From Vicinamibacterales bacterium (lineage in GTDB: Bacteria > Acidobacteriota > Vicinamibacteria > Vicinamibacterales > UBA2999), in assembly GCA_030680175.1 (NCBI GenBank), contig JAUXWO010000051.1, positions 1-64,000 of the forward strand: a stretch of DNA of 64,000 nt, read 5' to 3'. Shown here piece after piece: positions 14,313-28,587 of this stretch. Made by a program: the position numbers and the translations under genes. The notes beneath the pieces were generated by a model. The model had not been told where the DNA came from, did no database searches, and saw only the letters and a program-made list of their open reading frames with translations. Within the stretch, counting starts at the first letter, position 1. Every line of letters starts with the position of its first letter.

Positions 14313-17300
14313 TCAGGGAACGAGGTAGCCGTTGTCCGCGGTGCCGTCGACGAAGTTGTTGTTGATCTTGTCGACGACGGTGTTCAGGTCACCGATCTTG
14401 ACGCCCGAGGGCAACGCCCCCGTGTTTCCGCCAAGCACCTGGTTCGCCAGCGCGAGCACCTGGTTCACGGTGGAGCCGGCCAGCTTGCCGGCGCTCACAC
14501 GGAGACTGCCGAGCCCGCTTCTGGTGACGCCAGCGCTCGAGAAGTCCACGCTCAGCCTGAGTGCCAGCACCTGGCCCGCGAGGTTCGTGATCTTCTTCGT
14601 CGGGTTGACTTCGCTCTTCTTCAGGGCCGCCACAGTGCCGCCCTGCGGAAGGAACGCCCGCACGGCGGCGGCGGAGGTGAACCGCAGCGTCTTGCTGCCA
14701 CCGATGGTCACCCCGGCGCTGCCGTAGATGCTGCCGAAGTTCGCGTCGAGAAGCGAACCCGGGCCGCTCGTCGACGGCGAGCCCCAGCCCCCCTGTGACT
14801 GCGTCCGGTAGGAGCCCGACGACGGCGGCGGGGTCGACAGCGTCACCGTCACGGTGAACGTCGTCGTCGCGGTGCTCCCGGCCGTATCGGTCGCGGTGCA
14901 CGTCACCGTGGTCGTGCCCACCGGGAACACGCTGCCGCTCGCGGGAGCGCAGGCGACCGTCACCGGTCCGTCGGCGCCGGTCGCCGACGGCGCGGCGTAG
15001 CTGACCGCCTGGCCGTCAGGGTCAGTGGTGGACACCGTCTGGTTCGGCGCCGGGTCGATCACCGGCGGCGTCGTGTCGCCACCGCCGCCGCCCGGGGCCA
15101 CCGGTTCGCCGGTCATCGAGTTGTAGCGGACGCCGCTGTCGACCGGCGGCGTGCCACGCTGGTCGTGCGGGACGCCGATGAAGACAGTCCCGCTGCACGC
15201 GGCCCCCGACGGGTCGGTGGCCGTGAAGCGGATCTCGTAGACCCGGCCGTCACCGTCGCCCATGCGCTCGGCGCGCACCCAGGGCTGGCCGTCGGGCAGG
15301 ACACCACCGTCGACGTTGGTGTTGCCGTCGCCCTGCGTGTTGGTCGGCTCATCCTGCCAGATCGAGTCCACAGTGAGGGTGAGGGTGTCCCCGTCCGGAT
15401 CCACAATCCCGAGGATCGAGATCGGCACCACGCGGTGGTTCGGCGGCCACGCGATGAACTGCGGGCTGCCGTAGGCGTCGCCACAGAACGGCGCCTGGTT
15501 CGACGGCAGCACGGTGATCGTCACCGTGGCCGGCGCGCTCTGGAGCTGGCCGTCAGTGGCGATGTAGGTGAACGCGTCGGTCCCGACGAAGCCCGGGGCC
15601 GGCGTGTAGGTGATGCGCCCGTCAACGCCCACCACCGCGGTGCCATTCGCCGGCGTGGAGACGCTCGCGACGCTCAGGGTGTCGCCGTCCGCATCGGTGT
15701 CGTTGGCGAGCACGTCGATCACGACGGCCGCACCGGCAATCACCGAGGCCGCGTCGTTCACCGCGACCGGCGCATCGTTGACCGGCGTCACGATGATGGT
15801 GATGACCGCCGTGGCGGTGCCCCCCTGCCCATCGCTCACCTGCACGGTCACCTCGTCGGTGCCGTGGAAGTCTGCCTCAGGCGTGTAGGTCAGTACGCCG
15901 TCCACGATCACGACGGTGCCGTCCACGGGCCCACTCAGCACGGTATAGGTGAGCGTGTCTCCGTCCACGTCCGTCGCGCCGAGCGTGACGTCAACCGGCG
16001 TGTCCTCGGGCGTTTCGACGCCCTGATCCGCGATGACGGGCGCGTCGTTGACCGGCGTCACGATGATGGTGATCGTGGCCGTGGCGCTGCCGCCCTTGTC
16101 ATCGGTCACCAGCACCGTGAAGGTGTCGGTGCCGTGGAAGTCCGCGGCGGGCGTGTAGTCGATGCTCCCGCCCGTCAGGACCGCGGTCCCGTGCGCGGGG
16201 CCGCTGACGATGGCGTAGCTCAACGGGTTGCCGTCCGGGTGCGAGGCCCCGATGGCAATCGCGATCGGCGTGTCCTCGGGCGTCGTCACCGTCTGGTCGC
16301 TCACGCTCGGCGGGTCGTCCACCGGCGCGACGATGATGGTGATCGTCGCCGTCGCCGTGCCGCCGGCGCCGTCGCTGACCTCGACCGTCACGCTGTCGGT
16401 GCCGTTGAAGTTCGGCGCGGGCGTGTAGGTCAGCACGCCGTCCACGATCGCGACGGTGCCGTTCGCCGGTCCGCTCGTGATCGTGTAGGCGAGCGTGTCG
16501 CCGTCCACGTCGGTCGCGCCGAGCGGCACGTCAATCGGCGTGTCTTCCGGGGTCGTCACGCTCTGGTCGGCGATCACGGGCGCGTCGTTCACCGGCGTGA
16601 CGATGATGGTCACCGTCGCCGTGGTGACGCCGCCCTGCCCATCGCTCACCTGCACGGTGACCGTGTCGGTGCCGTGGAAGTCCGCCGCGGGCGTGTAGGT
16701 CAGGACGTTACCGACGAGCACGGCGGTGCCGTTCGCCGGCCCGCCCGTGATCGTGAACGTGAGCGGGTCGCCGTCCACGTCGCTCGCGATGAGCGTGACG
16801 TCCACCGGCGTGTCTTCCGGGGTCGTGGCCGTCTGATCGTCGAACACCGGCGCGTCGTTCACCGGCGTCACCGTGACGGCAATCGTCCCGAACGACGTGC
16901 CGCCGTTGCCGTCGTTCACCTCGAACGTGAAGCTGTCGGGCCCGAAGTAGTTGGCGGCCGGCGTGTAGGTCGCCACGTTGCCGGCCAGCGTCACCGTGCC
17001 GGACGAGGGCCCGGCGGTGACGGTGTAGGTGAGCGCGTCGCCGTCGGGATCGCTGGCCACGAGCGTCACGTCAGCCGGGGTGTCCTCGGCCGTCGTCAGC
17101 GTACCGTCCGACGCGGTGGGCGGGTTGTTGAGGACGAGGCTGATTTCGCGGGCCTGCTCGATGTTGCCCGCCACGTCGCGCGTCCAGTAGCCGAACGTCG
17201 TCGATGCCGGCAGGACGACCGGGCCACTGTAGGCCACGGGCGCGCCCGACACCTGGTAGAAGGTCTGCTTCACCCCGGAGGTCGCATCGGTCGCGGAGAG

Positions 17301-19865
17301 CGTGACCGTCGCCGTGCCGCCAGGGAAGATCCCGCCAGCCGAGCAGTCGAGCGTCGTGGTCCCGTCAGTCCACGTGCAGGCAAGCGTCGTCACCGGGGCG
17401 ACGCGGTCGATATGGACGATGCGGCCGTTCAGCAGCGGATCCGACGACGAGGCGACGCTGGTGTTGCCTGCCAGGTCCTCGAGGCTGAAGACCATCGCGG
17501 GGTTCTCGCCCTCCAGATCGAAGATGAGCGGGACGTTCGATGCTCCGGCCACGCCGTTCACCAGGATCTGGTTCGACGACGTGAAGTTGTCGAAGACGCT
17601 GTATGGCACCGTCACCGACGAGGTGTACCAGCAGTGGCTGCCGGAGGCGTCACTCCAGCACGGGCCGGTCGGCGCCGGGTAGGCAAACGCTGCGCGCGGC
17701 GGCGTCAGGTCCAGCGTCACCACGATCTGCTGGCGCGTCGTCCGGTTGCCTGCGGCATCCTGCGTCCAGTACTCGAGGATGTTGTAACCCTCGGCCCAAT
17801 CGGCCACGGGGACTTCCACGTCATAGGTCGCGGGGTACGGGAAGCCCACCGGATCGCCGTCCGCCAACCCAGGCCCGTCGCAGTTGATCGGCGCGCCCGG
17901 GAAGTCATCGCAGCCGATGAAGGAATCATCCTCGAATGCGAGCGGGCCGTACACCCACTGCCAGTAGATCCGCTTGATGCCCGCCGCCGGCAGGCCCGCG
18001 CGCGGGTCGTCGACGTTGGTCGAGTCCACGACATCTTCGGCAAACAGGCCGAGCGTGACTTCCTCGTTGTAGAACACCCGCGGCGCCGGGTTGACGACCT
18101 CCGCGGTGATCGCTGGCAGCCCGGTCTCGCACTCGGCGCAGCCGACCGTGGCCTCCGACGTGCGGCTCGAACTCGCACTGGTCATCCCGTCATTGCCGTC
18201 GGCCGTCAACTCGAACGCCAGCGGGCCTTCGACACGCGCGACGACCGTGCACCGGAAGCGGTACACGTCGCTCGTGGCCGGGCTCGCGGGGGCGATGGGC
18301 CGAATCAGCCCGATCTCGCCAGACGACCCCAGGGACGTGTGCAGCGCCGTGGGGATCCAGCCGACGAGTTCGGGACCGACGGGCGCATCATCGAAGAGGA
18401 ACGGCCCCTGGCTGTCGCTGACCGCGCAGCCCGGAATCACGTTCTGCACCGCGGGCCGGCCCTCGGGAACGATGACACTGAATTCGACCGCCACCGTGTC
18501 GCCCTCGACCGCGCCCACACTCAAGGTGGCGCCGGGCCGCAGCACGTCGGGGGCGTGGGCGCGGGGCCCTGCCACCGAGACGTCGACGATGGCGAGGCTT
18601 GGAATCTGGAAGATCTCGATCTCGTGGTTCGCCGTGTCCACGACGATCAGACGGCCGAACGCGTCCTCGACGACGCCGCGCGGGTACCCGTTCAGGCCCC
18701 CCTGGGCGTTCAGTTCGAACAAGAATGTCGCCGTCGCCGGGCCGTCCGCCGGGTAGTCCGGCTGGAACACGACGAGACGCTGGTTGTCGGTGTCGCCCAC
18801 AATGATGCGGCCGCGGCTGTCCACCGTCACGGAGAATGGACTCTGCAGGTCGGCGCGGCTCGGCGCCGCGAAGCTCGCCGGGCGGCCGAAGGTCAGCACG
18901 GGCGTCATCGTCGGGATGCCCGCCGGGTGGTCTTCGTCAATCGAGAAGGGGATGATGCCGTCGTTCGGATCGCCGTCCACGAGCAGCCCGTTCGCGCTGG
19001 TGTTCCACACGACGATTCGACTGTTGTCGAGGTCGGCGACCAGCAGGTGGCTGCCCGTACGGTCGTACGAGAGGCCCGTCGCCAGCAGCAGGCTGCCCGG
19101 CACGGCGTCGCCCACGGGCGCCTCGTAGCGATCGAGCCAGCTGCCGTCGACGGCGCTCAGGAAGGCGATGTTGTTGACGGCCGAGCCGAAGTCGATCCCG
19201 TTGACCGCGATCGTCCCCTGCACGCCCCACGCGGTGCCCGGAAGCACGTCGATGCCGTACACCTTGAAGCCGACCGGGAGGGTGGCGAGAATCTGACCCG
19301 CCGGATCGAACACCACCACGCGATCGTTGCCGTAGTCGGCGACGAACACATTGCCGGCCGTGTCCACCGCGAGGTGATCCGGCAGCAGCAGGTTGTCGGA
19401 GTTCCACTCGGCGCCAGGCACGTCCACTTCCGCCCAGCCGTAGCCGTCGAGCGGGTCGTCGTCGGCGGCCGCGGGGTCGAAGCGATACACCACGACGCGA
19501 TGATTGAAGCTGTCGGTGACGTAGAGGCGGTAGTCGTTCGGGTTGACCGGGAAGCCATTCGCGCCGAGCGGCCCGGTCTGATAGAGCGCGACGTCCACCG
19601 GGTACATCAACTCACCCGGGCCAGGCGCCGGGTCGCTGCAGCCCTGGTAGCTATAGGTGTTGAAGTTGTAGAAGTCGATGCACGCTGGTGTCGTCCCGAA
19701 CGAGGGCAGGGCCTGCCAGATCTCGCCCTCGAATCCGGGCTCGAACACGAGCGTGCCGCCCTGTCCGTGGCCGGGCATCGGCGCGAGAACGAGGCCCACG
19801 GCCATCAGGAGGCCCAGGGTGAGCGCTCGAAGGCGCGTGCGCAAGTTCATGGGCTGACGCATCAT
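14313..19865 (-). CDS. giant secreted NHL-repeat / cadherin-like repeat protein
   Basis: An 1850-residue exported protein with a Sec signal (LRALTLGLLMAVGLVLAP, cleavage near GHGQ). Residues about 90-430 carry NHL-type beta-propeller repeats ('SRGRIIVGDTDNQRLVVFQ', 'AFGRLIVVDTANHEIEIFQ'). A middle region of Ig/bacterial surface domains follows (about 430-910). From about 910 to 1450 there are six tandem repeats of about 90 residues with the signature PEDTPxDVxLxAxDxDGDxLTYTxxxGPxxG, each joined by TPVNDAP: the tandem-95/bacterial cadherin-like type. A HYR domain lies near 1590-1680. The C-terminal ~150 residues are not recognised. A likely cell-surface or matrix adhesin. No sorting signal was seen. 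Confidence 0.92.
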   Translation of the reverse strand: MMRQPMNLRTRLRALTLGLLMAVGLVLAPMPGHGQGGTLVFEPGFEGEIWQALPSFGTTPACIDFYNFNTYSYQGCSDPAPGPGELMYPVDVALYQTGPLGANGFPVNPNDYRLYVTDSFNHRVVVYRFDPAAADDDPLDGYGWAEVDVPGAEWNSDNLLLPDHLAVDTAGNVFVADYGNDRVVVFDPAGQILATLPVGFKVYGIDVLPGTAWGVQGTIAVNGIDFGSAVNNIAFLSAVDGSWLDRYEAPVGDAVPGSLLLATGLSYDRTGSHLLVADLDNSRIVVWNTSANGLLVDGDPNDGIIPFSIDEDHPAGIPTMTPVLTFGRPASFAAPSRADLQSPFSVTVDSRGRIIVGDTDNQRLVVFQPDYPADGPATATFLFELNAQGGLNGYPRGVVEDAFGRLIVVDTANHEIEIFQIPSLAIVDVSVAGPRAHAPDVLRPGATLSVGAVEGDTVAVEFSVIVPEGRPAVQNVIPGCAVSDSQGPFLFDDAPVGPELVGWIPTALHTSLGSSGEIGLIRPIAPASPATSDVYRFRCTVVARVEGPLAFELTADGNDGMTSASSSRTSEATVGCAECETGLPAITAEVVNPAPRVFYNEEVTLGLFAEDVVDSTNVDDPRAGLPAAGIKRIYWQWVYGPLAFEDDSFIGCDDFPGAPINCDGPGLADGDPVGFPYPATYDVEVPVADWAEGYNILEYWTQDAAGNRTTRQQIVVTLDLTPPRAAFAYPAPTGPCWSDASGSHCWYTSSVTVPYSVFDNFTSSNQILVNGVAGASNVPLIFDLEGENPAMVFSLEDLAGNTSVASSSDPLLNGRIVHIDRVAPVTTLACTWTDGTTTLDCSAGGIFPGGTATVTLSATDATSGVKQTFYQVSGAPVAYSGPVVLPASTTFGYWTRDVAGNIEQAREISLVLNNPPTASDGTLTTAEDTPADVTLVASDPDGDALTYTVTAGPSSGTVTLAGNVATYTPAANYFGPDSFTFEVNDGNGGTSFGTIAVTVTPVNDAPVFDDQTATTPEDTPVDVTLIASDVDGDPLTFTITGGPANGTAVLVGNVLTYTPAADFHGTDTVTVQVSDGQGGVTTATVTIIVTPVNDAPVIADQSVTTPEDTPIDVPLGATDVDGDTLAYTITSGPANGTVAIVDGVLTYTPAPNFNGTDSVTVEVSDGAGGTATATITIIVAPVDDPPSVSDQTVTTPEDTPIAIAIGASHPDGNPLSYAIVSGPAHGTAVLTGGSIDYTPAADFHGTDTFTVLVTDDKGGSATATITIIVTPVNDAPVIADQGVETPEDTPVDVTLGATDVDGDTLTYTVLSGPVDGTVVIVDGVLTYTPEADFHGTDEVTVQVSDGQGGTATAVITIIVTPVNDAPVAVNDAASVIAGAAVVIDVLANDTDADGDTLSVASVSTPANGTAVVGVDGRITYTPAPGFVGTDAFTYIATDGQLQSAPATVTITVLPSNQAPFCGDAYGSPQFIAWPPNHRVVPISILGIVDPDGDTLTLTVDSIWQDEPTNTQGDGNTNVDGGVLPDGQPWVRAERMGDGDGRVYEIRFTATDPSGAACSGTVFIGVPHDQRGTPPVDSGVRYNSMTGEPVAPGGGGGDTTPPVIDPAPNQTVSTTDPDGQAVSYAAPSATGADGPVTVACAPASGSVFPVGTTTVTCTATDTAGSTATTTFTVTVTLSTPPPSSGSYRTQSQGGWGSPSTSGPGSLLDANFGSIYGSAGVTIGGSKTLRFTSAAAVRAFLPQGGTVAALKKSEVNPTKKITNLAGQVLALRLSVDFSSAGVTRSGLGSLRVSAGKLAGSTVNQVLALANQVLGGNTGALPSGVKIGDLNTVVDKINNNFVDGTADNGYLVP

Positions 19866-20047
19866 GAGCAGAGGTCCTATTGACGAGCGTGCAAACGATC
19901 GCAGTGGCGCAGAGGAGAGCGAGCCGCCGAGGCTGAATGCTCTTGACCACTATGTCATATAAAGTCGCATAATGATGCTGCACTGAGCGCGAAGTGTCAA
20001 GCGATTCGCCTGCAAAATCGTTCGTGGCAGCTACAGAAGTGTTCGTG
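19866..20047. promoter_or_regulatory. AT-rich divergent intergenic region
   Basis: This stretch of about 180 bp is notably AT-rich around 19943-19980 (ACTATGTCATATAAAG, CATAATGATGC), against a very GC-rich background. It must contain the promoters for the giant NHL gene (minus) and the nucleotidyltransferase gene (plus). Read on the minus strand, the GCATCATTA block near 19978 is similar to that at 9791 upstream of the kinase operon. No precise -35/-10 pair is claimed. Confidence 0.4.
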
Positions 20048-21154
20048 ATGGCAGCCATACAGACTAAGTCTCTCTGGCACAACATCTTGGAGGTGGCAGC
20101 CCCTGCCACTTCCGGGGGGGTGACGACGGTTCTGTCCGTGGCTGGCCGAGGGAGGGTGGGCGTGATGCTCGCCCACGAGTTCCTCGCCGAGACGGATGCG
20201 CCGCCGGCGACCCGCGCGCGGCTCGAGCAGATCGTGCGCGACGCGCTCGCCGTCGACCTGATCCGGACGGCGTCGCTCCGGTGCGTTCTCGACCGGCTCG
20301 CGGCCGACGGGGTCCCGGTGCTGATCATGAAAGGGGCCGCGCTCGCGCACACCTGCTACCCCGCGCCGCACCTGCGGCCACGCAATGACGACGACCTTGT
20401 CGTGAGCCAGGCGGCGTTTGCGTCCGCGTGCACCTCGCTCGAGCGACAGGGCTACATCGCGGAGCCACAGGCGTCGGGCGACCGCGTGACTGGCCAGCGC
20501 CACTTCGCGCGCACGGGAGGGGGGGGGACCACGCACCACGTCGATCTCCATTGGCGCCTCGTGAACCCCGCGGCCTTCGACGATCTGCCCGGCTTCGACA
20601 CCCTGGCCGCGGCGTCGGTCCCCTTGCCGGGCCTCGGTCGGCACGCGCGCGGTTTCGGCTCGGTGCACGCGCTGCTGCTGGCGTGCGCACACCGCGTCGC
20701 GCATCACACGCCCACCGAAGACCCGCAGTGGCTGCTCGACATGCACTTGATCGCACGCACCCTCGACGATCGGGGCTGGGCGGAGTTCGCGATGCAGGCC
20801 GAGCAGTCCCGTCTGGCCGAGGTCTGCGCCTCCGAACTGCGCCGGACACGGGAGGCGTTCGGCACGCCGGTCCCGGACGGCGTGCTGGCGCGGCTCGCCG
20901 CGGTCACCGGCGAACCCACCGCGGAGCATCTGGGCGCGCACGATCCGCTGCACGTCCAGTGGCTGAACCTGCGCCATGCCGGCGGGTGGCGCGCACGCCT
21001 CACGCTCGTGCGGCAGCACGTGTTCCCTCCACCGGCCTACATGCTCGCGCGCGACCGCCCCCGCCATCCGGCGCTGCTCCCCTGGCTCTACGTACGGCGC
21101 GCGGGGGTCGGCCTGGGGCGATGGATCCGCGAAGCCCGTGCGCGCCGGAGCTGA
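20048..21154 (+). CDS. nucleotidyltransferase family protein (NTP_transf_5-like)
   Basis: A 368-residue protein of the uncharacterised nucleotidyltransferase family that recurs beside lasso-peptide and related RiPP genes. The motif VPVLIMKGAALAHTCYP...LRPRNDDDLVV (about residues 77-115 from this start) is the family hallmark, with the acidic pair of the metal site in NDDDL. A second His-rich segment, THHVDLHWRLV, follows. The frame is open back to a GTG at 19994, adding 18 residues; the ATG at 20048 is chosen because the extra residues look unstructured, but either is possible. It is 3 bp upstream of a 2OG-Fe(II) oxygenase gene. Possible role: nucleotidylation of the peptide; substrate unproven. 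Confidence 0.85.
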   Translation: MAAIQTKSLWHNILEVAAPATSGGVTTVLSVAGRGRVGVMLAHEFLAETDAPPATRARLEQIVRDALAVDLIRTASLRCVLDRLAADGVPVLIMKGAALAHTCYPAPHLRPRNDDDLVVSQAAFASACTSLERQGYIAEPQASGDRVTGQRHFARTGGGGTTHHVDLHWRLVNPAAFDDLPGFDTLAAASVPLPGLGRHARGFGSVHALLLACAHRVAHHTPTEDPQWLLDMHLIARTLDDRGWAEFAMQAEQSRLAEVCASELRRTREAFGTPVPDGVLARLAAVTGEPTAEHLGAHDPLHVQWLNLRHAGGWRARLTLVRQHVFPPPAYMLARDRPRHPALLPWLYVRRAGVGLGRWIREARARRS

Positions 21155-21157
21155 CCC

Positions 21158-21784
21158 ATGCCGTCACCACGCGCCTTCAGCGACCTCGGCCTTTTCGTGC
21201 ACGCGGACTTCCTCGATCCGGCGAGGCGCGTCGCGCTGGCCGTGCGGGCCGCCGCGGCCCCGCACACGCCGGCGGCGATCGAAGCGGGGCCCGGCACCGC
21301 GGTCGATCCCGACGTCCGCCGCACCGACGAGGTCACGGCCCTCGACGACACGCTCGCGCCACTCGACCGGCGCCTCGATGCCCTTGGTCCCGCGCTCGGG
21401 CGCCACTTCGGCGTGACACTCGGATCCGCCGAACCCCTCGGGATGCTCCGCTACGGGCCGGGCAGCTTCTACCGGGCCCACCGCGACCGGTCCTCCGGCA
21501 CGCCCGGCACGCGCGAGCGCGCGGTGTCGGTGGTGCTCTTCGTGAATGGACGGGACGGCGACGGGTCTTACGAGGGCGGGGCGCTGCGTTTCTACGGGCT
21601 GCTGGGCGAGGGGCCGCTGGCGGGCGTGGGTCTGGACATGGACCCGGCGGCGGGCACGCTCGTCGCCTTCCGCTCGGAGGTGCTGCACGAGGTGACGCCC
21701 GTCACCTCGGGGGTCCGGTACACGCTTGTCACCTGGTTCTCCGCGCGCGACGCCGCCGCGGGCGGTGGGTCGCCGCTACCGTGA
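21158..21784 (+). CDS. 2-oxoglutarate/Fe(II) oxygenase, prolyl-hydroxylase-like
   Basis: A 208-residue oxygenase of the prolyl-4-hydroxylase-like double-stranded beta-helix type. The iron triad is visible as H108-x-D110 (YRAHRD) and H177 (EVLHEV), with R187 (SGVRYTLVTWF) as the 2-oxoglutarate anchor. The EGGALRFYG motif near 139 is typical. It starts 3 bp after the nucleotidyltransferase stop, and its 3' end overlaps that of a second, minus-strand 2OG oxygenase by 9 bp. In this setting it may hydroxylate the lasso peptide (for example its Pro or Val residues); that is inference. Confidence 0.88.
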   Translation: MPSPRAFSDLGLFVHADFLDPARRVALAVRAAAAPHTPAAIEAGPGTAVDPDVRRTDEVTALDDTLAPLDRRLDALGPALGRHFGVTLGSAEPLGMLRYGPGSFYRAHRDRSSGTPGTRERAVSVVLFVNGRDGDGSYEGGALRFYGLLGEGPLAGVGLDMDPAAGTLVAFRSEVLHEVTPVTSGVRYTLVTWFSARDAAAGGGSPLP

Positions 21785-22399
21785 CGGATCGACACAGAAC
21801 CACCCCGCCAGGGCGGTCTTCGGCGTGACGCCGCGCATCGGCGCGATGCAATGCTCGAGCGACGGATCGATCGCGAAGAGCACCCCGTCACCGGGTCCGG
21901 TGTTCGCAATCGTCGCGAGCGGGCGTCCGGCCTTCTCTCGCAGCTGGAACTCGCCCCCCTCGAACGGCGCCTCACTCAGGTTCACCGTCAACGCCACGCG
22001 CCGGTTGCCGTCCGCATCGTCATGCCACGAGTCGCGATGCCCGGCGCCTGGCAGCAGCCGGTAGACCGCCCCCACGAACCCGCCAATCTCCGGGACCCCG
22101 GCCACGTGCTGGACGGTCGCCACCACCGCGGGATCGTTCAGGAGGAAGTGCAGGACGCCATGGAGGTGGTCGTCGCGCAGTTTCAGGTCCACCGCTGGCG
22201 GATACACGCCGTGCGCGATCCGGGTCGTGAACGCCGCGGCGGCGAGGTGCCGCTGCAGCAGTGCCAGCAGATCCGCGTCGAACAACCGCGGCAGGCGCAG
22301 CACGCGCGCGGTCGCGAACGCCGCGGCCAACGCGTCGAGTGCCGCGCCGGCCGGCCGCCGGCCAACGCCCCGCCTGGTCAGCTGCAGTGCGGATGACAC
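21776..22399 (-). CDS. 2-oxoglutarate/Fe(II) oxygenase
   Basis: A 207-residue oxygenase, distinct in sequence from the plus-strand one. HDD at 126-128 (DSWHDDADG) supplies His and Asp ligands, the family motif FEGGEFQL lies near 146-153, and the distal His is H183 (SLEHCIAP). The 2-oxoglutarate-binding basic residue is probably K194. The GTG at 22399 is taken as start: it is 4 bp past the stop of the kinase gene, whereas the longer frame would run 53 bp into that gene. Last gene of the minus-strand lasso operon. Confidence 0.85.
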   Translation of the reverse strand: MSSALQLTRRGVGRRPAGAALDALAAAFATARVLRLPRLFDADLLALLQRHLAAAAFTTRIAHGVYPPAVDLKLRDDHLHGVLHFLLNDPAVVATVQHVAGVPEIGGFVGAVYRLLPGAGHRDSWHDDADGNRRVALTVNLSEAPFEGGEFQLREKAGRPLATIANTGPGDGVLFAIDPSLEHCIAPMRGVTPKTALAGWFCVDPSR

Positions 22400-22403
22400 C
22401 GGC

Positions 22404-23366
22404 CTATCCTGCGGCACGCCGGGATGGTGCAGGCACGCCGATCGCCGCCAGCACATCGTCGAGACGGTCGAGCGCGCGCGGGTAGACGAGGCCCACCACC
22501 GCCACGCGCTCCACGAGCGTGGCGAGCTGCCCGAAGCTCGTGCGCAGGGCCGCGCGATTCGTCACGTCGAGTACGAACGCACAGCGCGTGAGCGCAACAA
22601 CGGCATCCCGTGGCGCGACCGGGACGCGCGTGACGGCCTGGTCGTCGGACGCCATCGCGCGATCGATCAGAAAGAGGCGGGCGAGCGGCGCCGGGTGTGC
22701 CAGGAAGCGCAGGTTTGTCTCGGGACCGAGCCGCCGCTTCGTCGAGTAGTCCGCCACGGCAGGCACGGCCGCCGCCTCCGGAAAGACCGCGTCGGCCACG
22801 TCACGCCACAGGCGCAGCTCGCAGAAGCTCGGCACCGCCATCATCTGCCCGGTCTGCGGCGTGACGATGAGGACATCGTCGGTCACGAGCGACCAGCCGC
22901 GCTTGACGCACGCGGCCGCCAGCGTGGACTTGCCGCTGCCACCTGGGCCGACAAATGCGACGATGCCCTCGGGGCCCGCGACGGCGCTGGCGTGCAGGGC
23001 GAGGCGACCCGGCGCCGCGACGAGCAGCGGCAGCACCTGGTTGAGCAGCAGGTGGCGCACCGTGTCGTCTGGCGTGCCCGGCATCGCATAGGCGCGGATC
23101 GTCCGTTCCGCGGGACGCACCTCGAAGCTGGCGGAGTGCGCGAACTGCAGCAAGTATCCCGAGGCGAGGCGGCCGAACGAGAGCCAGAGCGACCCATCCT
23201 CTTCGTCCCAGTGATGGAACCACTCGTGGCAGGAGGGTGGCAGCTCGTCGGCGACGGTGATCGTCCAGTCCGGCGCACCCGCCGGTGCCGCCGACAGCGG
23301 CGGCAGCGGCAGTGTGCTCGCAAGGCGGAGACCGCCGGCGAGGTACACCGCCGGGCTACTCAGCAT
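22404..23366 (-). CDS. HPr-kinase-like kinase of the lasso cluster
   Basis: A 320-residue HprK-related kinase. The P-loop is FVGPGGSGKSTLAAA (140-148 core), followed by a conserved SLVTDDVL acidic segment that would bind metal. The N-terminal ~110 residues are beta-rich. HprK-like kinases in lasso clusters (paeninodin PadeK and relatives) phosphorylate a precursor side chain, in that case the C-terminal Ser. Here the precursor ends in Leu, so the target would have to be Ser35, Ser38, Thr39 or Thr50. The start is the ATG at 23366, which overlaps the methyltransferase stop by 11 bp; the longer open frame reads only Arg/Ser residues. Confidence 0.87.
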   Translation of the reverse strand: MLSSPAVYLAGGLRLASTLPLPPLSAAPAGAPDWTITVADELPPSCHEWFHHWDEEDGSLWLSFGRLASGYLLQFAHSASFEVRPAERTIRAYAMPGTPDDTVRHLLLNQVLPLLVAAPGRLALHASAVAGPEGIVAFVGPGGSGKSTLAAACVKRGWSLVTDDVLIVTPQTGQMMAVPSFCELRLWRDVADAVFPEAAAVPAVADYSTKRRLGPETNLRFLAHPAPLARLFLIDRAMASDDQAVTRVPVAPRDAVVALTRCAFVLDVTNRAALRTSFGQLATLVERVAVVGLVYPRALDRLDDVLAAIGVPAPSRRAAG

Positions 23367-24492
23367 AGCGGGTGAGGACTTCGGCCACGAATGCGGCCGC
23401 CGCGGCTGGCGTCGGCAGCAGATCGCGGTGCCGGTCGAAGACGCCCGCCTCAATCGCCGCCACCGAATGCGCGCCGTCGCAGAGTTCGAGCACGGTGCGC
23501 CGCGCCTGACCGGCCGGCGACAGCACCGGCACGCGGCCGGGCGCCGTGCGCAGGAGATCCTCGGTCGAGATCAACATCCCATGGAAGGTCGAGTGCCGGA
23601 ACCGCGCGCGCGGCGCCTCGGCCTCCCCGACGTCCACCTGCCACTCGAGGATCGTGTTGGTCGGACGCACACGGAGTCGCACGGCGATCGGGTCGCCGCG
23701 CCCGACCGTGGTGCGCTGGTCCACGGGCAGCAGCGCCTGCCTGCGGCGAATACGCGCGGGGCTGTCGGGCGCGTTGGTCATCGTGATGCCGGGGGCCAGG
23801 TCCGCGACGAACCAGCCGGCCAGCGCATCGAGCGTGCCGGCGCGATCCACGACGAACGACGCCGCCCCTTCCGTCATCTCCCCCGACGCGGTGGCCAGAT
23901 CGAAGCGCACGACCGGCGCGCCGGGCGCCAGGGCGCCGGATGGATCGAGGGCGAACGGATACCCGGTGCTCGCGGCCATCGGCCGGACGAGCGACACATC
24001 GAGGCCGGCCACGGGACGGCTCCAGCACTCCACGGCCTCGCGCACCCCGTCGTGCTCCCATGGCGCCATGTGAATCGCCACCGCCGAGGGCACCAGACGC
24101 CCGCCGGGCTTCAGCCACCGCGTGCGCGCATCCGACATGTACTCGACGATCCCTGCGTTGAAGCCGAGGTGGCCGATCTGATCGGTCACAATCACGTCCA
24201 CGGGCTCCGGAGGCGGCGTCCAGGTCGACACCGACCGAATCACCTCGACCCGATCGGCCAGGCCGTTGGCGCGCGCCAGCGCGCGCGCCAGTTCGACGAT
24301 CGCGCCGTCGTCCACGGCGTAGACCTTGCGCGCGCCGGCCTGGCAGGCCAGGTAGCCGAGGATGCCGGTACCCGACGCCAGGTCGAGCACCACGTCGCCG
24401 GGCCGCACGGCCTGCGCGATGGCGCGACGGAACGCGTCGATACGCGGCGCATCGAACAGGTACTCCCGGTGTTCGTCGATGATCAGGGACAC
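23356..24492 (-). CDS. PRMT-like class I methyltransferase with C-terminal PqqD-like segment
   Basis: A 378-residue SAM-dependent methyltransferase. An N-terminal DEHREYLFDAPRIDAFRRAI resembles the PRMT start; motif I is VLDLASGTG (35-43), and the acidic end of strand 2 is YAVDD. The region that in PRMTs carries the double-Glu loop reads TDQIGHLGFNAG (103-114), so both Glu are absent and true arginine methylation is uncertain. After a beta domain, the last ~60 residues (VPVLSPAGQARRTVLELCDG...) resemble the C-terminal half of PqqD/RRE domains. It sits directly downstream of the precursor gene, so it probably modifies that peptide. Confidence 0.85.
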   Translation of the reverse strand: MSLIIDEHREYLFDAPRIDAFRRAIAQAVRPGDVVLDLASGTGILGYLACQAGARKVYAVDDGAIVELARALARANGLADRVEVIRSVSTWTPPPEPVDVIVTDQIGHLGFNAGIVEYMSDARTRWLKPGGRLVPSAVAIHMAPWEHDGVREAVECWSRPVAGLDVSLVRPMAASTGYPFALDPSGALAPGAPVVRFDLATASGEMTEGAASFVVDRAGTLDALAGWFVADLAPGITMTNAPDSPARIRRRQALLPVDQRTTVGRGDPIAVRLRVRPTNTILEWQVDVGEAEAPRARFRHSTFHGMLISTEDLLRTAPGRVPVLSPAGQARRTVLELCDGAHSVAAIEAGVFDRHRDLLPTPAAAAAFVAEVLTRYAE

Positions 24493-24559: not shown

Positions 24560-24721
24560 TCAGAGGCATCCCGTGCGCATGACCGGCACGCCGCCTTCCT
24601 GGCGAGTGCTGCCTCCGGACTGCGTGAGCTTCGCGATGGTGCCGTACTCCACGAGCACAGGCGGCTCGTAGGTCCGGTCACGGTCGCCGACCTTCGCGGG
24701 AGACGAGGTCTTCTCAGTCAT
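24560..24721 (-). CDS. lasso-peptide precursor (leader plus 19-residue core)
   Basis: A 53-residue peptide, too short for routine gene calling. The leader contains the full lasso signature YxxPxLxxxGxxxxxT: Y18, P21, L23, G27, T33. That Thr is the conserved penultimate leader residue, giving a leader of 34 residues. The predicted core is SGGSTRQEGGVPVMRTGCL, with Ser1 as amine donor and Glu at position 8 as acceptor for an 8-residue ring; the 11-residue tail ends in Cys-Leu. A weak TAGGCGC precedes the ATG. Upstream are the B1, B2 and C genes; downstream are methyltransferase, kinase and oxygenase. Alternative cleavage one residue later would give a Gly start and a 7-residue ring. Confidence 0.9.
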   Translation of the reverse strand: MTEKTSSPAKVGDRDRTYEPPVLVEYGTIAKLTQSGGSTRQEGGVPVMRTGCL

Positions 24722-24770: not shown

Positions 24771-26624
24771 TCACCTCCCTTCCGCGCCCCGGCACCAGAG
24801 CTCCACGGCGAGGACCGCCCACAAATCGTCAGCAAGGGCTGGCCAGTTGTCCAGCCCCCCTGCGACGGCGGTGTCGAGCGCGTCATGCAGGCGTACGACC
24901 GCGCTGGCTCGTACCCAGTCCCTCCGAGCGATGGCGAGGTCAGCTACGAGGCTCCGGCTCCCGACCCCCGCGAACGCCTCCAGCAGGAAATGCGAGTAGT
25001 CACCGTAGGTGACGCTTCGCAGAGTCGAAGCGGGCAGCCGCCCGGCCATCGCCCGTCGAAGCACGGCCTTGGGCAGGCCGTCCCCACGCCGCTGCTCCTC
25101 CGGAAGGCCGAGAGCAAACGTCACGATCCGGCGGTCGTAGAAGGGGGCGCGGTCCTCGAGGCCGGCGCCGACGGCAAAGCGCTCCTGCTCCTCGCGCGCC
25201 GCGATCGCCCCTGGGGACCATGCCTCCGTCACGAGATACCGCGCGGCATGGCTGCGCGCCTGCACGGCCGGCACCGTCAGTCGCAGGCGATCAGCGAGCG
25301 CCACGCGGCGCGCGAAGTCGGGGGCGATCCACACGGGCAGCCGTCGCGGGCGGACGAGCCGTCGCGCCACCGGACGCAGCGCCTGCGGGACCAGGGGCCA
25401 CAGTGCATCGCGCCAGACGCCCCTCGTCCCCACTGAATCGGGCATCGCGAGCTCCGCACGCCAACGGCGGACGAAGGCGCGTGCGCGACCGTGCGCGATC
25501 AGATCCGCTAGATGCGCACGCGTGCCGAACAGCCACTCGTCGCCGCCCACCCCGTTCAGCAGCACGCCAGCACCCGCGGCAGCGGCCCGCCGTCTCAAGC
25601 CGTGCGAGGCCGCGCCGGCCGGATGCGCCGGCAGCGCCCCAGTGGCCGCGGCCTCGGCCGCGAAGTCGAACGCCGCGACACTCGCCTCGACGCGCGTCCA
25701 GTGCGCGCCGCCCACGTGCGCGACGGTCGCCCGCGCCGCAGCGGTCTCGTCGAGCGCCCCATCGGCCACGCCGAGGGTGAAGGCGTGCAGGTCGTGACCA
25801 AGCGCCGCCGCCGTCGCGTAGATCGAACCGGAATCGAGGCCCCCGCTGAGCATCAGCCCGGCCGGGCGGCCCTCGGTCGCACGCAGCCTGTCGGCGACCG
25901 CCGCGGTGAGCCGCGTGCGCAGGTCGTCGGCGTACTCGTCGTCGCGCGCGTAGCGGAGTTCCTCTCGCGCATCGGGCGTCCAGTACGGCGCGACATCCGT
26001 ACGGTCGCGCCCGACGATCAGCCGGTGCCCGGGCGGCAGGCGCTCGACGCCGTCGTAGAGCGTGCGCGTCACGCTCACGGTGCGGCCACACAGGGCCTCG
26101 GCCACCGTCCCCTCGTCGATCGGCCGGTGGAGGTGACGCGCCAGCGCCGGCGCGGAGGAGGCGCAGTACACGGCGTGCGGCGTCACGGCCAGGCACAGCG
26201 GTCGAAGGCCCAGGATGTCGCGGGCGGCCACGAGGCGCTGCCGGCGCGCGTCCCAGATGATGAGGGCGAAGTCGCCGGCCAGCCGTGCGAACGCCGCCTC
26301 GCCCCAGGCACGATAGGCCGCGAGGACGAGCGGCGCGTCATCGAGATCGCCGGGCGCGCCGAGCGCACTGGCGAGCGCCGGCCGATCATCGAGCCGGCCA
26401 TCGAAGACGAGGACGAGGCCCGCGCCGGCGTCGTGGAGGGGCCCGGCGGCCTGCGTGGACCCGGGCGTCGACGTGCGGGAGGTCTGTCCCAGTGCGGCGG
26501 GACCGTCGAGACGCATGGCCTCTCGATCGGGACCACGGTCGCGGACGGCGGCGAGGAGCGGCTGCAGGTCGGGCGCGGCCGCCGGGCGGCCGTCGCGGTG
26601 GAACACGGCGGCCAGTCCGCTCAT
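24771..26624 (-). CDS. lasso cyclase, asparagine-synthetase-like (C protein)
   Basis: A 617-residue AsnB-like protein. An N-terminal glutaminase-fold region (1-190) begins MSGLAAVF, so the catalytic Cys2 of true asparagine synthetases is replaced by Ser: no ammonia should be made from glutamine. The synthetase domain has the ATP pyrophosphatase loop SGGLDS at 260-265 and the GVGGDEWLFG acidic motif near 353. In lasso clusters this enzyme adenylates the side-chain carboxylate of the ring Asp/Glu, which is then attacked by the core N-terminus. Overlaps the B2 stop by 4 bp (ATGA). The stop lies 49 bp before the precursor ATG. Confidence 0.88.
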   Translation of the reverse strand: MSGLAAVFHRDGRPAAAPDLQPLLAAVRDRGPDREAMRLDGPAALGQTSRTSTPGSTQAAGPLHDAGAGLVLVFDGRLDDRPALASALGAPGDLDDAPLVLAAYRAWGEAAFARLAGDFALIIWDARRQRLVAARDILGLRPLCLAVTPHAVYCASSAPALARHLHRPIDEGTVAEALCGRTVSVTRTLYDGVERLPPGHRLIVGRDRTDVAPYWTPDAREELRYARDDEYADDLRTRLTAAVADRLRATEGRPAGLMLSGGLDSGSIYATAAALGHDLHAFTLGVADGALDETAAARATVAHVGGAHWTRVEASVAAFDFAAEAAATGALPAHPAGAASHGLRRRAAAAGAGVLLNGVGGDEWLFGTRAHLADLIAHGRARAFVRRWRAELAMPDSVGTRGVWRDALWPLVPQALRPVARRLVRPRRLPVWIAPDFARRVALADRLRLTVPAVQARSHAARYLVTEAWSPGAIAAREEQERFAVGAGLEDRAPFYDRRIVTFALGLPEEQRRGDGLPKAVLRRAMAGRLPASTLRSVTYGDYSHFLLEAFAGVGSRSLVADLAIARRDWVRASAVVRLHDALDTAVAGGLDNWPALADDLWAVLAVELWCRGAEGR

Positions 26625-27049
26625 GCGGGGCGGGAGTCCGGCAACGCCCAGCGCGCCACGGGGACGAGGTGCGCCTCGGGCACGGGTCCAGCCACCTCGC
26701 CGCTGGCCACCACCCACGCGTGGGCCGCGAACGCGGGCGCCCCGGGTTCGGTGCCGATGACCAGCTCGCACGCGCCGCCAACGGAGGCAATCAGCCGCGC
26801 GGACACGGCCGCCCGCACCAGGCAGGTGGTCGACCAGGGCAGGCGCGCCGCCACGGCCTCGACGATCCATGCCACGCGCGCGGGCGCGATGGTGGTTGGC
26901 GCGCGCTGCACGCCGCTGATGCGAGTGAGCTGCCGGAGGCCCCAGCCCGGACCGGGCCATCGCACGACGCACGACGCCACGGCGAGGAGCGCCGTGGCCC
27001 GCAGGACCAGCCCGCGCTCGGCGCGCGACAGCCGCGCGAATCGCGCCAC
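26621..27049 (-). CDS. lasso-peptide leader protease B2 (transglutaminase fold)
   Basis: A 142-residue protease of the Transglut_core3/lasso B2 family. The catalytic Cys is C76 in PWSTTCLVRA and the His is H110 in AHAWVV, both in the usual order. The third residue, an Asp in a short stretch after the His, is not evident: only Glu residues follow until D138. The GTG start at 27049 lies 7 bp after the PqqD-like gene. It would cut the leader after residue 34 once the peptide is presented by B1, coupled to ring closure by the cyclase. Confidence 0.87.
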   Translation of the reverse strand: MARFARLSRAERGLVLRATALLAVASCVVRWPGPGWGLRQLTRISGVQRAPTTIAPARVAWIVEAVAARLPWSTTCLVRAAVSARLIASVGGACELVIGTEPGAPAFAAHAWVVASGEVAGPVPEAHLVPVARWALPDSRPA

Positions 27050-27056
27050 GGCGCCG

Positions 27057-27344
27057 TCAGTCAGCGGCCGCCCCCGCGGGTTCGACGAGGCCCTTCTCGA
27101 CGAGTGTCCCGACCAGCGCCAGCACGTCCTCGCGGATGCGCGCGACGGGGGCCTCGAACTCGACCGCCAGCGCGTCGCACGTGCCCGCCACGTCGTTGGT
27201 CTGCAGCAGTTCCCAGGCCCGCGTGCCGACGGGGTTCAGCCCGTAGTACATCCCGCTCTCCAGGTTGAGCAGGAGCGCCTCGGTGCCGAGCGTGCGGAAC
27301 ACGACATCGGGACGGATGACGAAGCGTGCGTGCAAATCTGACAT
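27057..27344 (-). CDS. PqqD-like RiPP recognition protein (lasso B1)
   Basis: A 95-residue stand-alone PqqD/RRE protein. The pattern FVIRPDVVFRTLGTEALLLNLESGMYYGLNPVGTRAWELL followed by a helical V..LV..LVEKGLVE is the PqqD fold: a three-stranded sheet and a helix bundle. In lasso systems B1 binds the leader motif YxxPxLxxxG and hands it to the B2 protease, which is encoded 7 bp downstream here. First of the B1-B2-C group; 46 bp after the flavoprotein gene. Confidence 0.9.
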   Translation of the reverse strand: MSDLHARFVIRPDVVFRTLGTEALLLNLESGMYYGLNPVGTRAWELLQTNDVAGTCDALAVEFEAPVARIREDVLALVGTLVEKGLVEPAGAAAD

Positions 27345-27390: not shown

Positions 27391-28587
27391 TTACAACACC
27401 GACGACGTCAGCCGCCGGAACAGCACCTGCCGCGCCGGGGGATGGCGCAGCAGTTCGAAGATGAAGCGCCGGTGCTCGTTGAACTTCGCCGAGCGCCGCA
27501 CGATCGGCATCACCCCATCGGTGAGCGCCAGTTCGAACAGGCCGTCGATGTCCGCGTCGGTCATTCGGTGCGACAGCATGCGCAGCGCCATCTGCGCGCC
27601 GAACTCGGTGCGGAACCGCCGGCGCCAGCGACGCTCGTACACGGCCAGGTCTCCGGCACCGAGGCGGTCGGCCACGAGTGCGTCACCGAGGACCTCGGCC
27701 GCGAGCCGGCCGGTGACGACCCCGTAGTAGATGCCCCCGCCGGTCGTCGGCTTCACCAGGCCCGCGGCGTCACCGACGGCGAGCACGCGGTCGGCATAGG
27801 TGCGGGACAGGCTGCCGAGCGGCAGCATCTTGCGGCGCGGCGGCGCGTCGGGACGGGCCACGCCCCATGCCGGTCCGATCCGCGCGATCAGATGGTCGAA
27901 GCACTGCTCCGCGTCGTGCTCGGCCATCACGCCGACGCGCACATGCGGCCCGTCGGGACGCGCGACCGGCACCACCCAGGCGAAGCCCTTCGGGGCGACG
28001 GTCGTGCCGAAGTACACCTCGACATCGCCGCCGCGCGCGGCCGGCAACTCCCGCTGCGCCGACTGCAGGAAGACCGAGGGCAGCCCGAGCCCCAGCCGGC
28101 GCTGCAGCGTGTAGTTGGCCCCGGTGGCCAGCACGACGGCGCGCGGCTCGAGGCTCGTCCCGTCGGCGCACTCCACGGTCACGCCCCGCGCATGCGGCGT
28201 GACGCTCGTGACACGGCACCCGGTGCGCAGGTCCACGCCGGCCGCGCGTGCGCGATCGGCCAGCGCGGCATCAAGGGCGCCACGGTCGATCACCACCGCC
28301 TCAACCGTCGGGGTCTCGTACTCGACCTCGGCCCCGCCCGGCGCGTGGAACCGCACCGTGCGCAACTCGTTCAGGATGACGTGCGCCGGAAGGCTGAGCT
28401 CCTCGAACGCCTCGCGCGCGAGCACCCCGGTGCAGTGCACCGGCTCCCCCACGGTCGCGTGCTCCTCGGCAACGACGACATGCCGTCCCGCGTCGGCAAG
28501 GGCACGGGCGGCAGACAGGCCCGCCGGGCCGCCGCCGACCACGAGCACATCCGGGGAGTCCGGGTTCAAGACGCGGGTCTCAGGCAC
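27391..28587 (-). CDS. geranylgeranyl-reductase-family flavoprotein
   Basis: A 398-residue FAD-dependent oxidoreductase. The dinucleotide-binding motif VLVVGGGPAGLSAARAL lies at 14-30, the second FAD motif is RVLAVGDAAGLVKPTTGGGIYYG near 265-287, and a C-terminal tail of helices completes the digeranylgeranylglycerophospholipid reductase-like fold. Family members reduce isoprenoid double bonds or hydroxylate aromatic substrates. It could belong to isoprenoid/undecaprenyl metabolism tied to polysaccharide synthesis, or be the first gene of the lasso operon; 46 bp to the B1 gene is compatible with co-transcription. Confidence 0.88.
   Translation of the reverse strand: MPETRVLNPDSPDVLVVGGGPAGLSAARALADAGRHVVVAEEHATVGEPVHCTGVLAREAFEELSLPAHVILNELRTVRFHAPGGAEVEYETPTVEAVVIDRGALDAALADRARAAGVDLRTGCRVTSVTPHARGVTVECADGTSLEPRAVVLATGANYTLQRRLGLGLPSVFLQSAQRELPAARGGDVEVYFGTTVAPKGFAWVVPVARPDGPHVRVGVMAEHDAEQCFDHLIARIGPAWGVARPDAPPRRKMLPLGSLSRTYADRVLAVGDAAGLVKPTTGGGIYYGVVTGRLAAEVLGDALVADRLGAGDLAVYERRWRRRFRTEFGAQMALRMLSHRMTDADIDGLFELALTDGVMPIVRRSAKFNEHRRFIFELLRHPPARQVLFRRLTSSVL

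Follow-up and report, generated by a model that had tools for sequence, protein, structure and literature searches.

A Lasso Peptide Precursor in a Vicinamibacterales Gene Cluster and the Association of a Cys-Leu Core End with a PRMT-Fold Methyltransferase Clade

Organization of the Gene Cluster

The window analyzed here, a stretch of 64,000 nucleotides from a Vicinamibacterales bacterium, contains a series of genes that run on the same strand in the order GGR-like FAD enzyme, B1, B2, C, A, methyltransferase, HprK-like kinase, and 2OG-Fe oxygenase (Table 1). A reading made from the sequence alone had proposed an unannotated 53-residue lasso peptide precursor, encoded by a minus-strand ATG-to-TGA frame between the AsnB-like cyclase gene and the methyltransferase gene, with the three maturation genes immediately upstream. 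Re-translation returns this frame exactly as described (MTEKTSSPAKVGDRDRTYEPPVLVEYGTIAKLTQSGGSTRQEGGVPVMRTGCL*), its location between the two genes is confirmed, and domain matches identify B1, B2, and C directly upstream on the same strand.

Table 1. Features of the lasso peptide locus, in coordinates of the window
Feature	Coordinates	Strand	Basis
Lasso precursor A	24560..24721	(-)	53 aa, ATG..TGA; NF033521 match, conserved homologues
Predicted leader, residues 1-34, ends Leu-Thr-Gln	24620..24721	(-)	YxxPxLxxxGxxxxxT motif
Predicted core SGGSTRQEGGVPVMRTGCL, ring Ser1-Glu8, 11-residue tail ending Cys-Leu	24563..24619	(-)	Acid at core 8 and CL end in homologues
B1, PqqD-like leader-binding protein (RRE)	27057..27344	(-)	PF05402, E 2.6e-17
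B2, leader peptidase	26621..27049	(-)	PF13471; NF033537 56.3 bits, cut-off 33
C, AsnB-like macrolactam synthetase, ~617 aa	24771..26624	(-)	PF00733, E 1.6e-39; SGGLDS motif
PRMT-fold methyltransferase MT1	23356..24492	(-)	PRMT_C domain; PRMT6 profile match; fold model
HprK-related kinase, start codon uncertain	22404..23453	(-)	TIGR04352 44.3 bits, below its cut-off
2OG-Fe(II) oxygenase, possible tailoring enzyme	21776..22456	(-)	PF13640; homologues in lasso loci L045, L148, L070
Second 2OG-Fe(II) oxygenase	21158..21784	(+)	PF13640, E 3.1e-18; homologues in L045, L046, L124, L147, L154
NTP_transf_5 protein, nucleotidyltransferase class	19994..21154	(+)	PF14907, E 1.3e-33; homologues in L045, L051, L056, L124
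Geranylgeranyl-reductase-family FAD enzyme, upstream of B1	27391..28587	(-)	TIGR02032 201.6 bits, cut-off 158.8

The B2 protein contains the Cys and His residues of a transglutaminase-like site. The best NCBIfam match of the cyclase is the lasso cyclase model NF033535, at a score below the cut-off of that model. The stop codon of B2 overlaps the start codon of the cyclase as ATGA (cyclase ATG at 26624), which argues for a cyclase of ~617 residues rather than the 733 residues of the mechanical open reading frame. Scans for promoters and terminators gave no signal above chance. No export gene was identified; the peptide is presumably exported. A second lasso cluster in the source genome was considered and rejected, a single B2 having been found.

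The geranylgeranyl-reductase-family FAD enzyme is present in 26 of the 36 genomes that have the cyclase and in 26 of the 126 that do not, and the two genes share a contig in ~17 genomes. This recurrence by lasso clusters makes a tailoring role possible. Near the cluster, positions 14313-19865 of the window hold a minus-strand open reading frame of 1850 residues in which repeated cadherin-like segments can be seen by eye.

The Precursor Gene and Its Homologues

The residues Y18, P21, L23, G27, and T33 lie in the translated frame in the YxxPxLxxxGxxxxxT spacing that the sequence-only reading had reported, and the peptide scores 30.8 bits against the NCBIfam model NF033521 lasso_leader_L3 (cut-off 19, E 1.9e-7). 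Across the 64 kb window, read in six frames, the strict pattern occurs once; in 40 third-order Markov simulations, windows contained a mean of 0.025 matches, none of them with a tail of lasso length.

When the precursor alone was used as the query, two weak relatives only were recovered among 59 genomes. The cyclase was found in 36 of the 162 genomes of the order and, in a search of a contig database, at four distant loci only; when the cyclase loci were read for the leader motif, many proved to have a precursor close to that gene. A profile built from 17 precursors has matches in 40/162 genomes of the order and in 40/396 genomes sampled from the phylum. In the homologous loci, the frame between cyclase and methyltransferase is intact and the leader motif is conserved. 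Locus L045 (genome G089) has the same gene set as the window, comprising GGR, B1, B2, C, A, MT, kinase, oxygenase, NTP_transf_5, and oxygenase. In the closest pair of precursors, those of G089 and G091, 20 nucleotides differ, 12 of them in the third position of a codon.

A chance or decayed frame that encodes no functional precursor would fit two observations, namely that the precursor-alone search returned no homologue among 35 genomes of the same family and that no clear ribosome-binding site lies upstream. Against such an origin stand the leader-model score above its cut-off, a chance rate of at most 0.025 per window, and the presence of precursor homologues at the corresponding position in several further families of the order, and it is rejected here as highly improbable. 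The frame is not a product of chance, because homologous precursors occupy the same kind of neighborhood in many genomes of the order. Judged from its sequence, it is very probably a real lasso precursor gene. Every feature of a lasso precursor that can be tested from sequence is present, and a threaded product is predicted.

Leader, Predicted Cleavage Site, and Predicted Ring

Within the alignment of 17 precursors, P21, G27, L32, and T33 are invariant, and T33 supplies the Thr at leader position -2 that is required of a lasso precursor. Twenty-one cores were aligned at Leu-Thr-x, with the residue that follows taken as residue 1. An Asp or Glu is found at core residue 8 in 20 of the 21, and those 20 cores contain no other Asp or Glu. 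This distribution supports cleavage after Leu-Thr-Gln and an eight-residue Ser1-Glu8 ring, in which Glu8 falls within the range of positions 7-9 where a ring acceptor is required. It also lends support to the isopeptide ring and 11-residue tail ending in Cys-Leu that had been proposed for the window peptide. The same proposal had called Ser1 less common than Gly1. Ser1 is indeed present, but it is not unusual in this family, where 15 of the 21 cores begin with Ser or Thr. Non-Gly first residues are also known from the caulonodins, in which residue 1 is reportedly Ser or Ala; the title of a 2014 paper by Zimmermann on these peptides, cited in PMC13352647, speaks of unprecedented N-terminal residues. 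The caulonodin cores are unrelated to the window core, and we know of no methyltransferase for these peptides.

The mature product would thus be a lasso peptide that has no disulfide in its ring. B1 would bind the YxxPxLxxxGxxxxxT leader, B2 would cut the precursor after Leu-Thr-Gln, and the AsnB-like enzyme C would activate Glu8 and join it to the amine of Ser1, forming an eight-residue ring threaded by the 11-residue tail. The calculated monoisotopic mass of this predicted macrolactam is 1872.893 ([M+2H]2+ 937.454).

A core without any acid belongs to a precursor of the Cys-Leu group in genome G066 (L042, 9301-9430). This core, TCGITTKATGNMLRVCL, has no Asp or Glu, has GCC as the codon at position 8 and Cys as residue 2, and adjoins an intact cyclase open reading frame. 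A decayed gene, a sequencing error, or another mode of closure could each account for this core.

Fold and Active-Site Residues of MT1

The methyltransferase family matches PRMT6 in a PDB profile search with an E value of 1.6e-60. The AlphaFold2 model of MT1 has a mean pLDDT of 93.3 and matches PRMT1/2/6 with E values of 1e-28 to 1e-29 (Foldseek). A tree of 45 homologues places the window enzyme in a 15-row clade, the MT1 clade, with support of 100/100.

Structural and sequence comparisons show that MT1 and PRMT1/2/6 have the same fold over ~315 aligned columns. The main differences are that MT1 lacks the double-Glu loop and the THW motif and has an extra three-helix segment at its C terminus. 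In the profile and family alignments, the double-Glu loop of PRMT6, SEWMG..HES, is replaced by [TSA]DxxG..xAG in most of the MT1 clade, the window enzyme having NAG. In place of THWKQ of PRMT6, the MT1 clade has mostly IxRR[QN], and several other homologues have residues of the Ile-Tyr-Gly type. MT1 thus falls in the PRMT class by fold and outside it by both motifs, and their absence disfavors a canonical arginine methyltransferase. A fused PqqD/RRE domain at the C terminus of the methyltransferase had been suspected by eye; it was rejected at an hhalign probability of 6.5%.

As judged from these substitutions, the residues that hold arginine appear to be gone from MT1 and the site looks more basic, which would favor an acidic acceptor such as a C-terminal carboxylate. 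A retained Asp of MT1 could also act as the base that deprotonates a Cys thiol.

Association of MT1 with the Cys-Leu End

A Cys-Leu end is found in 16 of the 17 precursors that lie beside a member of the MT1 clade (14 genomes) and in none of ~33 other precursors of the order and phylum. Fisher's test gives p 3e-12 with no correction for relatedness, and this value is not a true probability since the sequences are related. The sole exception is G087 (L148, 8745), which encodes an MT1-clade enzyme next to a core that ends in HMKP, so MT1 enzymes do not all need the Cys. The clade also includes the G114 enzyme, on a long branch, with the precursor of that genome on another contig. In G078 (L044, 10191-10760), three tandem precursors, all ending in Cys-Leu, lie between one cyclase and one methyltransferase.

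Two genomes form a natural pair. G060 encodes TGGITTKDNGNMFRVCL with MT1, and G068 encodes TGGITTKDQGNMFRQGP without it. The cores end in VCL and QGP, respectively, and are nearly the same elsewhere in ring and tail. G060 has MT1, the kinase, and a second methyltransferase, whereas G068 has the kinase and the second methyltransferase. There is no room for MT1 between A and the kinase of G068, and its 99% complete genome contains a single methyltransferase match. The two genomes differ mainly by MT1 and by VCL versus QGP. The second methyltransferase, a more distant PRMT-like enzyme, follows the kinase in both loci (G060, L146, 2845-3750; G068, L040, 4760-5692). The two copies are sisters (99/91), and many lasso loci across the phylum, with cores that end in other residues, contain a homologue.

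The tie between the methyltransferase clade and the Cys-Leu end, as drawn from sequence comparison, suggests that MT1 acts on the end of the peptide tail. MT1 may methylate the C-terminal Cys-Leu, at either the Leu carboxylate or the Cys thiol, before or after ring closure; we give this site about an even chance.

Two other explanations of the tie were weighed. MT1 might methylate a tail Lys or Arg by PRMT-like chemistry, Cys-Leu being kept only as a recognition, plug, or end element. The PRMT fold suits such a reaction, and Lys or Arg is present in every tail associated with MT1; however, the residues that grip arginine are replaced in MT1, several tails (G072, G080, G115, and G073) have Lys only, and G068 retains the Arg of G060 yet lacks both MT1 and Cys-Leu. 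Methylation of Lys or Arg is therefore considered unlikely. Alternatively, Cys-Leu might serve the finished peptide, for example in metal binding, dimerization, or target contact, and travel with MT1 by common descent. Both belong to one clade, so part of the association is inheritance. Descent as the whole explanation is nevertheless rather unlikely, given that the last two residues stay fixed while cores and tails vary widely and that, in the G060/G068 pair, the end changes together with MT1 on nearly the same ring and tail. The reading in which Cys-Leu is the methylation site can be stated for the group as a whole: these precursors would form a lasso peptide subfamily in which a PRMT-fold methyltransferase that has lost arginine specificity acts on the near-invariant C-terminal Cys-Leu, yielding S-methyl-Cys or a Cys-Leu methyl ester, a proposal that we hold to be evenly balanced.

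The Kinase and Its Possible Target

The kinase open reading frame contains the motifs HAS...GPGGSGKS...TDD, which correspond to the His, P-loop, and Asp-Asp motifs listed for lasso kinases (PMC10368454). The known enzymes PadeK, ThcoK, and PsmK modify a C-terminal Ser (PMC9266682), and BsfK modifies core Ser3 (PMC10368454). The window core ends in Cys-Leu instead, so phosphorylation of a C-terminal Ser as in paeninodin is excluded, and the target of the kinase should lie elsewhere. Residue 3 of the window core is Gly, and Thr is found at core residue 5 in 17 of the 21 cores. From these features, Thr5 is guessed as the target: the HprK-like kinase would phosphorylate a hydroxyl of the ring, of which Thr5 is the leading candidate, although the assignment is tentative and somewhat doubtful.

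Comparison with Known Lasso Peptide Clusters

Similar to the window, the clusters of paeninodin, pseudomycoidin, and other kinase-tailored lasso peptides (PadeK, ThcoK, PsmK/PsmN) include an HprK-like kinase, and that of pseudomycoidin has a nucleotidyltransferase-class gene nearby (PMC9266682). The NTP_transf_5 protein of the window belongs to the nucleotidyltransferase class, which is also the annotation given to PsmN and BsfN in other lasso clusters. A PRMT-fold methyltransferase is present here and is not mentioned for clusters of the paeninodin and pseudomycoidin type in the review PMC9266682. The Bsf cluster of Bradymonas sediminis also resembles the window in its nucleotidyltransferase-class gene and in a kinase that acts, with the assistance of B1, inside the ring region, where the window kinase is proposed to act; it differs in having Ile at leader position -2 and a core that ends in Asp, compared with Thr and Cys-Leu here, and its gene list contains no methyltransferase in place of MT1 (PMC10368454). 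Earlier work has described both lasso kinases and lasso clusters from soil DNA of acidobacterial origin (PMC9064862, PMC10368454).

Tailoring at the C terminus, which is proposed only for MT1, is established for the carboxyl methyltransferases of lassomycin and StspM, a C-terminal methyl ester being known for lassomycin (PMC9266682). StspM was modeled on mitomycin 7-O-methyltransferase with a His/Glu site (PMC9266682), a description that sets it apart from the PRMT fold of MT1. In the literature searched, which included only a minority of subscription papers, no paper was found that places a PRMT-fold methyltransferase in the biosynthesis of a lasso peptide, nor was a report of the MT1/Cys-Leu pattern found there. 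One paper, PMC12637814 (saskemycin), mentions lasso peptides, once, as well as an arginine methyltransferase.

Implications for Lasso Peptide Tailoring

The assignment of the lasso precursor is the ordinary part of this analysis, and the precursor alone would be one more lasso peptide; what is new, and was not part of the sequence-only reading, is the tie of the MT1 clade to the last two residues of the core. A fixed Cys-Leu end together with the MT1 clade constitutes a testable pair of substrate and enzyme, for which G060 and G068 provide a ready natural control. A core ending in CL beside MT1 is also a simple signature for genome mining. If the proposed pairing is true, a PRMT-fold enzyme would join the repertoire of lasso peptide tailoring.
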